From contig JAHBXB010000003.1 in the NCBI GenBank assembly GCA_019636655.1, positions 310,001-374,000 of the forward strand: a stretch of DNA of 64,000 nucleotides, written 5' to 3'. Shown here piece after piece: positions 10,404 through 15,363 of the stretch. How positions within the stretch are numbered: the first letter of the stretch is position 1; the number at the start of each line of letters is the position of its first letter. Source of the DNA: Phycisphaeraceae bacterium. Lineage in GTDB: Bacteria > Planctomycetota > Phycisphaerae > Phycisphaerales > UBA1924. The translations under genes and the position numbers were made by a program. Under the pieces are notes generated by a model. That model was not told where the DNA came from, searched no databases, and worked only from the letters and a program-made list of their open reading frames with translations.

Positions 10404-12659
10404 ATGACCACGACTCAGGCACGGAAGCCGCGGGAGGGACCCGTTCCCACTGTCTCGAACGGCGAAGTCGACATGCCCCGATCCACTTCCTCTCGCAAAC
10501 AGTCTGCACGGGTGACGGCCGAGACGATGGCCGGGCGGCAGCGGGATATCTCCGTTTCGGAGTTCTTCGCCAAGAATCGGCACCTGCTGGGGTTTGACAA
10601 CCCCCGGAAGGCGTTGCTGACCACCGTCAAAGAGGCGGTGGACAACTCGCTGGATGCGTGCGAGGAGGCGGGGATCCTCCCGGACGTGACCGTGGTGATC
10701 GAGGATCTGCAGCCGGAGCGGCCGACAACGCTGAAGTCCTCGCGGTACCGGCTGACGATCGTGGACAATGGGCCCGGGATCGTGAAGAAGCAGGTCGAGC
10801 ACATCTTCGGCCGGCTGCTCTACGGGTCGAAGTTCCACCGGCTCAAGATGTCGCGGGGCCAGCAGGGGATCGGGATCTCCGCCGCGGGGATGTACGGGCT
10901 GATCACCACGGGCAAGCCGATGGTGATCCACACGCGGCCCAGCGCCAACAAGCCGGCGCACCACATCGAACTGGCGATGAATACAAAGACCAACCGTGCC
11001 GAGGTCACGGTTGACACGGAGACGAGGGATTTTCCGCCCGAGCGTTTGCGGGGGCTGAGCCCGGGCACTCGCGAGGAGTGGTTCCTGCGGGCGGCGGACT
11101 ACCCGACGGGGACGAGCGTTTCGATCGAGCTGGAGGGCCGGTACCAGAGGGGACGGGGGTCGGTCGACGAGTTCCTGGAACTGACGGCGATTGCGAACCC
11201 GCATGCACGGATCACGTTTGTCCCGCCGTCCAAGGAGAGCGCAGCGGAGGAGGATGACATCCCCCTGCTCAAGGATGGCAAGTCGGCGGAGGCACCCGCC
11301 GCGCCCGAGCCGGAGAAGACCCTCGAGGCGAACGGGGTGACGCTGTTTCCGCGCGGAGTGTCGGAGCTCCCTCCGGAGACGAAGGAGATCCAGCCGCACC
11401 CCAAGGGGATCGAACTGGGGATCCTGCTGCAGATGCTCAAGGAGGCGGAAGAGGAGCGGCGGGGGTATTCGCTGTTCAGTTTCCTGCAGGACAAGTTCAG
11501 CCGCGTGTCCGCGGCGACCGCGAGCAGCCTGTGCGCGAAGGTGAAGCTGACGAGCAGGACCAAGGTGACGGATGTCGACCACGCGCTGGCGGAGAAGCTG
11601 TTCCGCGAGTTGCAGGACGCCAGGCTTCCGCCGCCGCCGACGGATTGTCTGGCGCCGATCGGGGTGCGGCAGTTGCTGGCGGGGATGCTTAAGGGCGTGA
11701 AGGCCGAGTTCTACGCGGCGTCGTCCAGAGATGCTGCCGTGTACCGGGGTCGGCCGTTCCAGATCGAGGCGGCGATCGCCTTCGGCGGGGAACTGGTGGC
11801 GGAGGAGACCGCCCGGGTGATCCGCTTTGCCAACCGGGTGCCGCTGCTGTTCCAGCAGAGCGCGTGCTCGTCGTTCAAGGCGGTCGTCGAAACCTCGTGG
11901 AAGAACTACAACCTGCAGCACCCGCGGGGGAGCCTGCCGGTCGGGCCGCTGGTCATCATGATCCACATGGCGAGCGTGTGGGTGCCGTTCACGAGCGAGA
12001 GCAAAGAGGCGATCGCGGACTACGACGAGATCCGCAAGGAAATGAAGCTCGCGCTGATGGAGTGCGGACGCAAACTGGGGACCTACCTGCGCAAGCGGCA
12101 GGCGATGAGGCGGCAGAGCGAGCGGAGGGACGTATTCGAGCGGTATATCGGCGAGATCGCGAAGGCAGTCCACGCCATCAACGGCACGGATGCGAAGCGG
12201 TTATACGACGCGCTGCTCGAGCAGGCTCGGGTGCGGACGGCGGTGGCGGATCAGGTACTGGACGATGAGGGCAAGGTAGTAAAGGACGACCCGGGCGAGC
12301 AGGATGGGGTGATCATCGTCGAGAGCGCGATCGCAGGCAGGCAGGGAGGTGATGAGGGGGATTCGCCGCCGCTGTCGCTCAGCAAGGCGGAGAGGGCGAA
12401 GCTGAAGGTGACCGGAATGGCGCGGGAGGACGAGGACCCGTCGCTGCTGGATGTCGAGCCCGCGAAGCGGTCGGCTCGTTCGGGGCGAGCCCGGCAGCCG
12501 AAAAGCCCGGTTAGAGAGAAGCGGGCCGCTGCGAGGGAGGCTGCCGAGCCGGCCGGGCAGACGCCGAAGAAGATCGGAACGTCACCGAAGGGCACGAAAC
12601 CGAAGATGCGGCTGGTGAACGGGAAACTGGTGCCGGCGGATGAGCCCGGGCTGTTCTAG
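10404..12659 (+). CDS. top6B: DNA topoisomerase VI subunit B (type IIB)
   Basis: This is the ATPase subunit of topoisomerase VI, which opens and reseals double-stranded DNA with the Spo11-like A subunit encoded just downstream. The GHKL ATPase motifs are clear: EAVDNSLDACEE (residues 77-88), DNGPGI (121-126) and RGQQGIGISAAGMYG (151-165). An H2TH-like segment (LAPIGVRQLLAGMLKG) follows, then the transducer domain with WKNYNLQHPRGSLPVGP, containing the ATP-contacting switch lysine region, and ASVWVPFTSESKEAIA. The last 100 or so residues are basic and low in complexity. The chosen ATG at 10404 gives 751 residues; GTG at 10269 and ATG at 10473 (MPRSTS) are in frame, and conserved sequence begins only after 10473. 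Confidence 0.93.
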   Translation: MTTTQARKPREGPVPTVSNGEVDMPRSTSSRKQSARVTAETMAGRQRDISVSEFFAKNRHLLGFDNPRKALLTTVKEAVDNSLDACEEAGILPDVTVVIEDLQPERPTTLKSSRYRLTIVDNGPGIVKKQVEHIFGRLLYGSKFHRLKMSRGQQGIGISAAGMYGLITTGKPMVIHTRPSANKPAHHIELAMNTKTNRAEVTVDTETRDFPPERLRGLSPGTREEWFLRAADYPTGTSVSIELEGRYQRGRGSVDEFLELTAIANPHARITFVPPSKESAAEEDDIPLLKDGKSAEAPAAPEPEKTLEANGVTLFPRGVSELPPETKEIQPHPKGIELGILLQMLKEAEEERRGYSLFSFLQDKFSRVSAATASSLCAKVKLTSRTKVTDVDHALAEKLFRELQDARLPPPPTDCLAPIGVRQLLAGMLKGVKAEFYAASSRDAAVYRGRPFQIEAAIAFGGELVAEETARVIRFANRVPLLFQQSACSSFKAVVETSWKNYNLQHPRGSLPVGPLVIMIHMASVWVPFTSESKEAIADYDEIRKEMKLALMECGRKLGTYLRKRQAMRRQSERRDVFERYIGEIAKAVHAINGTDAKRLYDALLEQARVRTAVADQVLDDEGKVVKDDPGEQDGVIIVESAIAGRQGGDEGDSPPLSLSKAERAKLKVTGMAREDEDPSLLDVEPAKRSARSGRARQPKSPVREKRAAAREAAEPAGQTPKKIGTSPKGTKPKMRLVNGKLVPADEPGLF

Positions 12660-12694
12660 ACGCGGTGAACACGCGGATTCGAGGGAGTATGGCT

Positions 12695-13165
12695 ATGGGA
12701 TACATGAGCGGACTCTGGACGCGAGTCGGTGCCACAGTGCTGGCGATCGCCGTGACTGCGTGGCTCGCGGCGTGCGCCTCGTCACCGTCGATGACACCGG
12801 GCTCGGGGTCGAGCATCTTCGGAACGTGGCGGCTCACGCAGATCGAGGGGGTCGACGTCAAGGCCGTTCAGGATGAAGGGGGCAGGGCGCCGACGCTGAC
12901 CGTTTCGGTGGACGGGATGATCTTCGGGTTCACCGGGATCAACCAGCTGAACTCGTCCGTGGACCTGGAGGCCCTCGCCCGCGGCGAGTTCGAGATGGGC
13001 CTCGCGGCGACAACACGGATGGCCGGTTCGCCCGCGGCGATGGCGATGGAGTCCAGGTTTGTCAGCGGACTTGCGGATGCGACGCGGTACACCGTGTCAA
13101 ACGGTGAACTGACGTTGTCGAATAGCTCACGGGACCTGCTGAGATTTGTGCGCGTAGAGGAATGA
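12695..13165 (+). CDS. META-domain (HslJ-like) lipoprotein
   Basis: A 156-residue predicted lipoprotein: hydrophobic signal, lipobox LAAC with Cys27, then a META domain running from GTWRLTQIEG through PTLTVSVDGMIFGFTGINQ, LAATTRMAG and a final LRFVR strand. META domains occur in HslJ and related secreted proteins of uncertain function. The family's two usual cysteines (in GCN and TxMAC) are replaced here by Ile and Gly. GAGGGAG seven bases upstream supports the ATG at 12695; ATGs at 12665 and 12689 are in frame. It lies between the two topoisomerase VI genes, with 35 and 36 bases on each side, and so is probably co-transcribed with them. Confidence 0.8.
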   Translation: MGYMSGLWTRVGATVLAIAVTAWLAACASSPSMTPGSGSSIFGTWRLTQIEGVDVKAVQDEGGRAPTLTVSVDGMIFGFTGINQLNSSVDLEALARGEFEMGLAATTRMAGSPAAMAMESRFVSGLADATRYTVSNGELTLSNSSRDLLRFVRVEE

Positions 13166-13201
13166 TCGCGAGCGGTCGCCCCAGATCCGAGAGAGGCCCA
13201 A

Positions 13202-14350
13202 ATGGCGAAGAAGACCCAGTCGACGACGGCCCGCGCGGGAACCTCGAAACGCTCCAAGGAGCGAGATGTTGTCACGCTCAAGAAGATCGTGTCGCTGGCG
13301 GACGACCTCGCCAAGCGGACGTTCGCGGGAAAGGAGCCGACGCTGGAGGTGCCGACGCGGGCGAGGTCGAACACGATCTGGAACAGAAAGAAGGGAATCC
13401 TGCAGATGGGCGAGGCCGCCCAGGATCGGCAGCTGTTCAACCTGAACCAGGCGAAGCTGTTCATGCAGACGATGCTCCACTCCAACAGCATCCGGGAACT
13501 GATCGGGGCGGACAAAACGCTGAGCCTGCGAGCGATGTTCTACAAGGGGCTGCACACGGTGGCGGGGACGTCGGAGAAGACGTTCGGCGACCAGGGGGAA
13601 TCGGACGGCATTCTCGAGGACCTGGAGGTCACGATCGGGGCGCTGCGGGAGGAACTGCACATCTTCGCCAAGAAGGCGGGGACGATCGTCGGGAACATCA
13701 CGCTGGTGGACACGGGGGACGAGATCGACTGCAGGAGGATGGGATCGGGCGGGTACGCGATCCCGAGCATCGTCGAACCGGACATCATCCAGTTCAAGAA
13801 GTGCGAGGCGAAGTTCGTGCTGCACGTCGAGAAGAACACGGTGTGGAGCCGCTTCAACGAAGACCGATTCTGGGAGAAACACAACTGCATCCTGACCGAA
13901 GGGGGCGGGCAGCCGCCACGCGGGGTCCGGAGACTGCTGAGACGCCTGAACGAGGAACTGGGGCTTCCAATCTACTGCCTGCTCGACTGCGACCCGTGGG
14001 GGCACTACATCTACAGCGTCATCAAGCAAGGATCGATCTCGCTGGCATTCGAATCGGAGCGGCTGGCGATCCCCGAGGCGAAGTTCATCGGCATCCGGGC
14101 CAAGGACTACAAGGAGTGCGACCTTACCGATGACGTTCAGATTTCGCTCAACGACACGGATATCAAGCGGGCGAAGGAGATCGCCGCGTACCCGTGGTTC
14201 GAGCACCACAAGGGATGGCAACGGGAAATCTCGGGGTTGCTCGGCAACGGGTTCAAGATGGAAGTCGAGTCGCTCATTACGAAGGACATCTCGTACGTGA
14301 CGGAGACGTACGTACCGCAGCGGCTTCGGGCAAAGGACTGGCTGGAGTAG
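13202..14350 (+). CDS. top6A: DNA topoisomerase VI subunit A (Spo11-like)
   Basis: This is the DNA-cleaving subunit of topoisomerase VI. The winged-helix catalytic region contains LSLRAMFYKG with the candidate nucleophile Tyr114 spaced from Arg110 as in the family. The Toprim fold follows, with Glu210 in LHVEKNTVW and the acidic pair Asp262/Asp264 in LLDCDPWGHYIY that would hold magnesium. The end RLRAKDWLE is also family-like. Length (382 residues) matches archaeal subunit A. The start follows GAGAGAGG. With the B subunit 540 bases upstream it gives a complete A2B2 enzyme, which relaxes and decatenates DNA. Confidence 0.93.
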   Translation: MAKKTQSTTARAGTSKRSKERDVVTLKKIVSLADDLAKRTFAGKEPTLEVPTRARSNTIWNRKKGILQMGEAAQDRQLFNLNQAKLFMQTMLHSNSIRELIGADKTLSLRAMFYKGLHTVAGTSEKTFGDQGESDGILEDLEVTIGALREELHIFAKKAGTIVGNITLVDTGDEIDCRRMGSGGYAIPSIVEPDIIQFKKCEAKFVLHVEKNTVWSRFNEDRFWEKHNCILTEGGGQPPRGVRRLLRRLNEELGLPIYCLLDCDPWGHYIYSVIKQGSISLAFESERLAIPEAKFIGIRAKDYKECDLTDDVQISLNDTDIKRAKEIAAYPWFEHHKGWQREISGLLGNGFKMEVESLITKDISYVTETYVPQRLRAKDWLE

Positions 14351-14682: not shown

Positions 14683-15363
14683 GTGGCACGGCTGGAGTCC
14701 ACTGCAGTGATGTCCAAACACGGTCAGGAATCGAGTCGGAACGATCCGGTCCAGGTTCCCCATGGTCCTTGTCGAGTGCTCGTGGCGGACGATGAGCACC
14801 TCGTTGCGCTCGGGCTGGTGGCGATTCTGAAGGAACTCGGCCACGACGTTGTCGGAGTGGCGGACGACGGGGTGAAGGCGATCGAGCTGGCTCGCAAGCA
14901 CAAGCCCGAGGTAGCCCTGCTGGACATACGGATGCCGAAGATGAACGGCATCGATGTGTCGCTGGTGCTGCACGAGGAACTCGCCATCCCGTCGATCATG
15001 GTGTCGGCCTATTCAGATAACGAGCACCTGGCCCAGATCCGCCAGCACGGCGCCGAGACGGGCATCTATGGGTACCTGCTCAAGCCGGTCTCCGGGGACG
15101 ATGTGCGTGTGGCGCTGAGCATCGCCCGCCAGCGGTCCGCGGTGGATGGCTACCGCAGCCACCGAATCGGACAGCTGGAGGCTAACCTGGCGAACCGCCG
15201 CACCGTCGAACAGGCCAAGTGGCTGATGGTCGAGAAACTCGGGATCACCGAGCCGGAAGCCCACGAGAAACTGCAGCGGCTGGCCAGGGACAGCCGGCGG
15301 CCGCTGATCGACGTGGCGAAGGAAGTGATCGCCGCCGGCGGCGTCATCGGCAAGGCCAACTGA
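14683..15363 (+). CDS. Response regulator with ANTAR RNA-binding output domain
   Basis: The 226-residue protein has a receiver domain (VLVADDEHLVALGL, phosphoacceptor Asp81 in LLDIRMPKMNG, the Ser/Thr position in MVSAYSD and the Lys in YLLKP) followed by a C-terminal three-helix ANTAR domain with the typical EQAKWLMVEKLGITEPEAHEKLQRLA pattern (described here in part). ANTAR proteins of the AmiR/NasT/EutV type bind paired RNA hairpins and prevent transcription termination. The GTG at 14683 has GAGGAG eight bases upstream; an ATG at 14710 is in frame. The cognate kinase is not in the window. Confidence 0.92.
   Translation: MARLESTAVMSKHGQESSRNDPVQVPHGPCRVLVADDEHLVALGLVAILKELGHDVVGVADDGVKAIELARKHKPEVALLDIRMPKMNGIDVSLVLHEELAIPSIMVSAYSDNEHLAQIRQHGAETGIYGYLLKPVSGDDVRVALSIARQRSAVDGYRSHRIGQLEANLANRRTVEQAKWLMVEKLGITEPEAHEKLQRLARDSRRPLIDVAKEVIAAGGVIGKAN

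Follow-up and report, generated by a model that had tools for sequence, protein, structure and literature searches.

Background

The nearest described relatives of the enzyme considered here are the topoisomerase VI (topo VI) of M. mazei (PDB 2Q2E and 9O0G), that of S. shibatae (Saccharolobus; 2ZBK) and the bacterial topo VI surveyed by Allen and Maxwell in 2024 (PMC11302465). In that survey, 17 or more bacterial families have topo VI, with Pirellulaceae, Lacipirellulaceae, Thermoguttaceae, Sedimentisphaeraceae and Anaerohalosphaeraceae among them; gyrase accompanies it in every case, and outside Pseudomonadota and Terrabacteria topo IV is missing. Here we describe top6B and top6A, the genes for the two topo VI subunits in a 64,000-nucleotide stretch of a Phycisphaeraceae bacterium (Planctomycetota; contig JAHBXB010000003.1, positions 310,001 to 374,000 of the forward strand), referred to below as the window. 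As in the surveyed bacteria outside those two groups, the window's genome has gyrase (subunit A) and appears to lack topo IV.

The presence of topo VI in a planctomycete is not new, having been published already (PMC11302465), and it is ordinary. In an even draw of 392 Planctomycetota genomes, which serves as the comparison sample throughout, the Top6B transducer was found in 191 and a match to the window's Top6A in 188. Together with the 17 or more families of the survey, these counts overturn the statement of the first-pass annotation, made from the sequence of the window alone, that topo VI is known in only a few bacteria. The family list of PMC11302465 appears to include no Phycisphaerales family.

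Three details are new here: one type of topo VI excludes a second type IIA enzyme, the histories of A and B conflict, and the tail of Top6B holds a docking-like motif that is conserved. We consider it likely that the locus encodes a working topo VI that would act as a decatenase in place of topo IV, as a mosaic of A and B subunits with a docking motif in its tail. Such an enzyme would be an A2B2 type IIB topoisomerase, in which the ATP-driven gate of the B subunits traps one duplex and Y114 of A opens the double-strand break that lets this duplex pass. Neither subunit exchange nor the tail motif was reported in the literature searched, a limited search with most subscription journals outside it that took in the available parts of PMC11302465, PMC9348778, PMC9690074 and PMC11390915.

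Identity of the two subunits

The family matches of both proteins are far beyond chance. Top6B is matched by the Pfam families Topo-VIb_trans (E = 1.1e-55) and HATPase_c (1.8e-8) and by NCBIfam top6b (430.6 bits, cut-off 380.7); Top6A is matched by TOP6A-Spo11_Toprim (2.2e-57), TP6A_N (1.1e-12) and NCBIfam PRK04342.1-2 (504.8 bits, cut-off 465). Both the Toprim and the catalytic-tyrosine domain of a type IIB A subunit are found in Top6A. In Top6B, the GHKL and transducer domains are detected by Pfam; the H2TH region is recognized solely because M. mazei Top6B, within which it presumably lies, matches over the full length. Residues E77, N81, D121, G123, G125, G152, G155, G157 and K534 of Top6B are invariant in an alignment of 21 sequences, as are Y114, E210, D262 and D264 of Top6A in an alignment of 19; both alignments include archaeal enzymes (Sulfolobales and one DPANN archaeon). 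We take these residues to be the ATPase, switch, Toprim and nucleophile positions.

AlphaFold models were built for Top6B from 21 sequences (mean predicted local distance difference test score [pLDDT] 74) and for Top6A from 19 (mean pLDDT 79). The best fold match of the Top6B model is M. mazei Top6B (4e-50; 9o0g and 2q2e among others). The Top6A model best matches Top6A of M. mazei (9o0g) and S. shibatae (2zbk) with E values from 2e-27 to 2e-25, a match of moderate quality (template modelling score about 0.55-0.65, root-mean-square deviation about 10).

The window's enzyme shares both subunits, the catalytic residues and the fold with that of M. mazei. M. mazei Top6B is also the best PDB match to the window's Top6B by sequence (1.2e-123), whereas M. 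mazei Top6A is only about 31% identical to the window's. The best PDB sequence match for the latter is Top6A of S. shibatae (1.7e-77, 40% identity), whose Top6B is far less like the window's (4.3e-69).

Judged on its sequence, the locus encodes a complete, intact topo VI with its catalytic residues, as the first-pass annotation had proposed, and it is probably a working enzyme. Placement among GyrB/MutL-like or Spo11-only proteins and loss of activity residues, which would have spoken against this identity, were both looked for and neither occurred: the Pfam, NCBIfam and fold matches reject a GyrB/MutL-like or Spo11-only protein, and a Spo11 or topo VI-like complex is rejected because a full Top6B adjoins the A-type protein. 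In topoisomerase VIII, A and B form one polypeptide; here they are encoded by two genes with another between them. Topoisomerase VIII is borne by free or integrated plasmids (PMC11302465).

Histories of the A and B subunits

The identity of planctomycete A subunits to that of the window is bimodal among the matches listed, at either 47-84% or no more than 37%. We refer to the former as type 1 (64 genomes including the window's, two of them with partial genes) and to the latter as type 2. Between the types, mean identity is 33% for A and 53% for B (612 pairs).

Trees were inferred under LG+C20. From the initial 91 A rows and 89 B rows, 22 near-copy or long-branch rows were first removed in each case, which left 69 for the A tree and 67 for the B tree. 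In the A tree, type-1 A forms a clade (support 84/92) nested among A subunits of DPANN archaea: three of these join it at 94/77 and 100/100 and more at 97/95, with Thermoproteota next outside. The DPANN rows are placed by the phylum in the title of one record (Aenigmatarchaeota) and are probably metagenome bins (L238 is a 3.7-kilobase [kb] contig, L237 a 221-kb contig). The sampled type-2 planctomycete A is sister to M. jannaschii (100/99). The B tree unites all sampled bacterial B subunits in a single clade (100/98), whose neighbours are Methanosarcina and a haloarchaeon. Approximately unbiased (AU) tests set the two data sets against each other: the A data reject a single bacterial clade (log-likelihood difference 179, p 3e-116), and the B data reject the grouping of type-1 B with the three DPANN rows that neighbour type-1 A (difference 115, p 1e-10). 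A single clade of type-1 B survives the test (p 0.074), so that a position of type-2 B inside type-1 B is unproven.

The trees also disagree among close relatives of the window. Fifteen rows (13 assigned to the window's order by kinship; L162, from a bin named Phycisphaerales; and G038 [L111], whose A and B are 75% identical to the window's) form one clade in the B tree (100/98), and the A data reject this clade (difference 65, p 4.6e-4). In the A tree, the Adhaeretor-like planctomycetes L112, L114 and L179 together with L169 form a clade with most of the fifteen rows, without G278 and family f2; this clade is in turn rejected by the B data (difference 61, p 1.2e-4).

A and B, as read from these trees, do not have one shared history, and the conflict extends to close bacterial relatives. 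It appears that on one or more occasions within bacteria A was replaced while B stayed more stable, although the subunit exchanged may have been A or B, and once or more often. If so, an obligate heterotetramer would have had its DNA-cutting subunit exchanged, an unusual case of subunit mixing. Separate positions of the two genes, as in some type-2 class-mates where top6A is distant from top6B (e.g. G311 and G287), would make such an exchange easier. Two points weigh against exchange: the AU groupings were named after the trees had been seen, which makes their p-values optimistic, and the B tree was built without Methanococcales or other group I Euryarchaeota, which leaves the single bacterial B clade provisional.

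The alternative is an ordinary topo VI whose A and B were taken over whole from archaea in at least two transfers, as PMC11302465 has it, with the tree conflict produced by missing archaeal sequences or by hidden A paralogues that were lost differently. At least two transfers were inferred for A and for B alike in PMC11302465; in the present trees the two subunits conflict. Some Thermoproteota have two A genes, showing that old duplicates exist, and type-2 A is sister to M. jannaschii. Going by the ratios of A identity to B identity, type-2 and Methanococcales B are expected to be about as similar as type-1 and type-2 B, so that with Methanococcales B included the bacterial B subunits might no longer stay together. 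However, the conflict among the window's close relatives involves no archaea, with each data set rejecting the clade of the other, and the B data reject the DPANN neighbours of type-1 A as neighbours of type-1 B. We therefore regard whole-pair transfer as unlikely and prefer subunit exchange. Transfer from archaea, raised by the first-pass annotation along with a call for A and B trees, is right as regards archaeal descent; it was not one simple event, because the two trees conflict.

Two different Top6A matches occur in the Thermoproteota genomes G406, G416, G424, G440 and G456 (one further match in G424 is a fragment). In G038 and G143 (L111 and L078; family f43, given only as the same phylum), A shares about 75% identity with that of the window and is nearer to it than the A of several members of the window's own family; the pair may have been transferred, the genomes may be wrongly binned or their taxonomy may be odd.

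The C-terminal tail of Top6B

Topo VI B subunits differ at their C-termini. M. mazei Top6B has an Ig-like C-terminal domain (PMC9348778, PMC11302465), S. shibatae Top6B has no long tail, and TACK archaea have a short C-terminal helix (PMC9348778). The globular Ig-like domain occurs in gyrase-bearing archaea and has been suggested to localise topo VI (PMC9348778). No such domain was recognized in the window's Top6B, where residues 628-751 are mostly below pLDDT 50, with helices near the start of the tail and a weak hairpin at 735-744. The extra basic tail of about 100 residues noted in the first-pass annotation is therefore real, but it is acidic as much as basic: over the 39 tails compared below, each class of residue makes up 18%.

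The comparison used Top6B proteins at least 52% identical to the window's with a tail of at least 60 residues; identical ends were merged and taxonomy was not used. This gave 64 tails, or 39 after removal of similar ones. The dipeptide LF is present in all of them (64/64 and 39/39). In 2000 shuffles of the 39 tails it appeared in 3.9 on average and in 11 at most, and no other dipeptide exceeds its expected count by as much. It is terminal in 18 of the 39 tails, within five residues of the end in 11 and farther in in 10; in these 10, the stretch after LF is on average 40% basic. Position -4 is D or E in 25/39 tails (p 2.5e-10). Outside this set, five of the 25 other type-1 tails contain LF and none of the 20 type-2 tails does, the latter being short. 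The tail motif is not mentioned in the available text of PMC11302465.

This conservation suggests that LF is a docking-like motif and hints at a partner protein. The tail would then be a flexible tether with a short docking motif, usually an acidic residue followed by xx-LF, and may be a separate solution to the localisation need that the Ig-like domain answers in archaea. The nearest known motif is the bacterial clamp-binding consensus QL(S/D)LF, found at C-termini (PMC9690074); the sliding clamp is the first candidate partner. The sequences QDSLF, QEGLF, QGNLF and QGTLF occur among the window-like tails, and Q stands at -3 in 6/39 (p 0.002). Against a clamp partner, Q is absent from the consensus place in the other 33/39 tails; clamp docking is a guess.

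A relic of shared descent in a fast-changing tail, rather than a docking site, would be another source of the motif. The 64 tails do come from one group of similar B subunits. A search of six genomes for the strict pattern [DE]xPxLF-stop gave 11 matches, five of them at topo VI B (in five genomes) and the other six ending in TGG rather than a stop codon, so that the motif is not common to other proteins there, and a clamp motif shared with other C-termini is not supported. On the other side, the rest of the tail varies in both length and sequence and the place of the motif shifts, yet LF is kept in all 39 tails where shuffling never gave it to more than 11. A mere relic is accordingly rather improbable, and we favour a docking motif.

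The Top6B transducer profile match is split in two in L211, L212, L213 and L214 and in families f72, f81 and f98. These include Adhaeretor-like planctomycetes and bins titled Deltaproteobacteria and Myxococcota, and the split suggests an insert.

Topo VI and type IIA topoisomerases

The first-pass annotation expected topo VI to act beside gyrase and suggested a check for gyrase and topo IV genes. The window's genome has one topo VI A and one PF00521 (GyrA/ParC-type) gene, which is taken as GyrA because it carries two GyrA-boxes. Gyrase subunit A is thus present, but topo VI is not merely beside it: none of the 64 genomes with type-1 A has two or more PF00521 matches, compared with 19 of the 127 other topo VI-positive genomes, and one type-1 genome (G219) has no PF00521 match at all. 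Over the whole sample, two or more matches are found in 19/191 topo VI-positive genomes versus 106/201 topo VI-negative genomes (Fisher p 7e-21, kinship not corrected). Some second matches may be gene fragments (e.g. in G298, best E 7.8e-50).

The window's order illustrates the switch. Topo VI is found in 23 of its 31 genomes, each with one PF00521 match; among the eight genomes that lack topo VI, all seven of family f3 have two matches and G172 has one. The switch recurs, both between sister families and within families f72 (G274) and f37 (G140). In ten genomes with two copies (the seven of f3, G274, G140 and G152), the canonical GyrA-box with its Q is found in one copy and missing from the other (10/10); in single-copy genomes the canonical box was present in 5/5 examined. 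Since the canonical box is absent, we read the second copies as ParC. Between sister families the archaeal enzyme and, very likely, bacterial topo IV are mutually exclusive. This natural series makes it possible to test what purpose topo VI serves in bacteria, a question that PMC11302465 leaves open.

From this mutual exclusion with a second PF00521 gene and the switch between families, topo VI most likely does the job of topo IV in this genome, as a chromosome decatenase beside gyrase. A precedent of a kind is the complementation of an E. coli parE(ts) strain by M. mazei topo VI, mentioned as unpublished in PMC11302465. Several observations weigh against this role. In G172, a 98% complete genome of the window's family, the only PF00521 gene bears GyrA-boxes, and topo VI was not found: the two stretches examined hold no convincing remnant of A or B, the gene on the left flank is still there, and the assembly may have a gap. 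G172 (L293 and L294) is a possible natural case of gyrase alone, and judging by this genome a second type II enzyme may be dispensable. Many genomes of families f29, f39 and f49 likewise combine a single PF00521 match with no topo VI detected. Conversely, topo VI and a second match coexist in the 19 positives mentioned above, none with type-1 A. Nine of the ten second copies retain a Q-less RGGxG near the C-terminus, which bears on their reading as ParC. Lastly, the type IIA counts take in PF00521 (GyrA/ParC) and leave out GyrB/ParE, and related genomes were treated as independent.

It is quite improbable that topo VI has a side role (e.g. DNA repair or relief of transcription) while gyrase alone decatenates and the missing topo IV is a coincidence. 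G172 and the one-match genomes of f29, f39 and f49 would accord with this; against it, type-1 topo VI excludes a second type IIA gene in every case (0/64), a pattern repeated in the window's order, f72 and f37.

Replacement of topo IV remains our preferred role. A bolder version, in which the Phycisphaerales topo VI is a replication-coupled decatenase, with A swapped repeatedly onto a stable B and the LF tail docking on the clamp or on another replisome or segregation protein, is put forward as a doubtful, tentative proposal.

Plasmid, phage and viral records

Carriage by known plasmids or phages is not indicated: a tblastn search with Top6A gave three matches in 72,556 plasmid records, all haloarchaeal, and none in 50,697 phage records. 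Top6B gave four plasmid matches, again haloarchaeal (Halapricum counted among the haloarchaea), one of them a short partial match. M. jannaschii Top6A as a query found no relative in viral_contigs. Separately, one very large viral contig (L307; IMGVR_UViG_3300028558_000016, 482,156 bp) carries adjacent homologues of Top6B, 31% identical to the window's, and Top6A, 33% identical to a type-2 A.

Locus and neighbouring genes

The features of the locus are listed in Table 1; the top6B start codon given there is one among several possible starts.

Table 1. Coordinates of topo VI features and neighbouring genes in the window
Feature	Position	Strand	Basis
top6B: topo VI subunit B, 751 residues (GHKL ATPase, H2TH region, transducer, C-terminal tail)	10404..12659	+	Pfam, NCBIfam and PDB matches, model
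Top6B C-terminal tail, about residues 620-751, mostly predicted disordered; weak beta hairpin 735-744	12261..12656	+	model
Terminal DEPGLF, the window's version of the LF motif	12639..12656	+	tail comparison
META-domain lipoprotein, 166 residues, between top6B and top6A	12665..13165	+	META domain (E 4.5e-18)
top6A: topo VI subunit A, 382 residues, type 1	13202..14350	+	Pfam, NCBIfam and PDB matches, model
Codon of presumed catalytic tyrosine Y114 (top6A)	13541..13543	+	invariant alignment column
ANTAR-domain response regulator, downstream of top6A	14683..15363	+	domain search

The gene order of B, lipoprotein and A had been recognized in the first-pass annotation, and both the coordinates and the META domain match agree with it. 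Among 99 related loci, defined by an A with 66% or more identity to that of the window and including repeats of a single genome as well as loci too short for all neighbours, none was found to hold a META lipoprotein. The lipoprotein is therefore rejected as a part of the topo VI system and looks like a local insertion. A relative of the ANTAR response regulator is present in 19 of the 99 loci, making it a putative member of the unit at most.

Among 43 loci of at least 9 kb with the same identity threshold for A, top6B lies immediately upstream of top6A in 29 and is not found in seven; the corresponding numbers for other type-1 loci are 15 and four of 20.

One genus of the window's family has a dispersed repeat of approximately 160 bp (L035:1917-2078), with dozens of copies, about 75-89% identical, in three of its genomes. 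It is also found upstream of top6B in G002.

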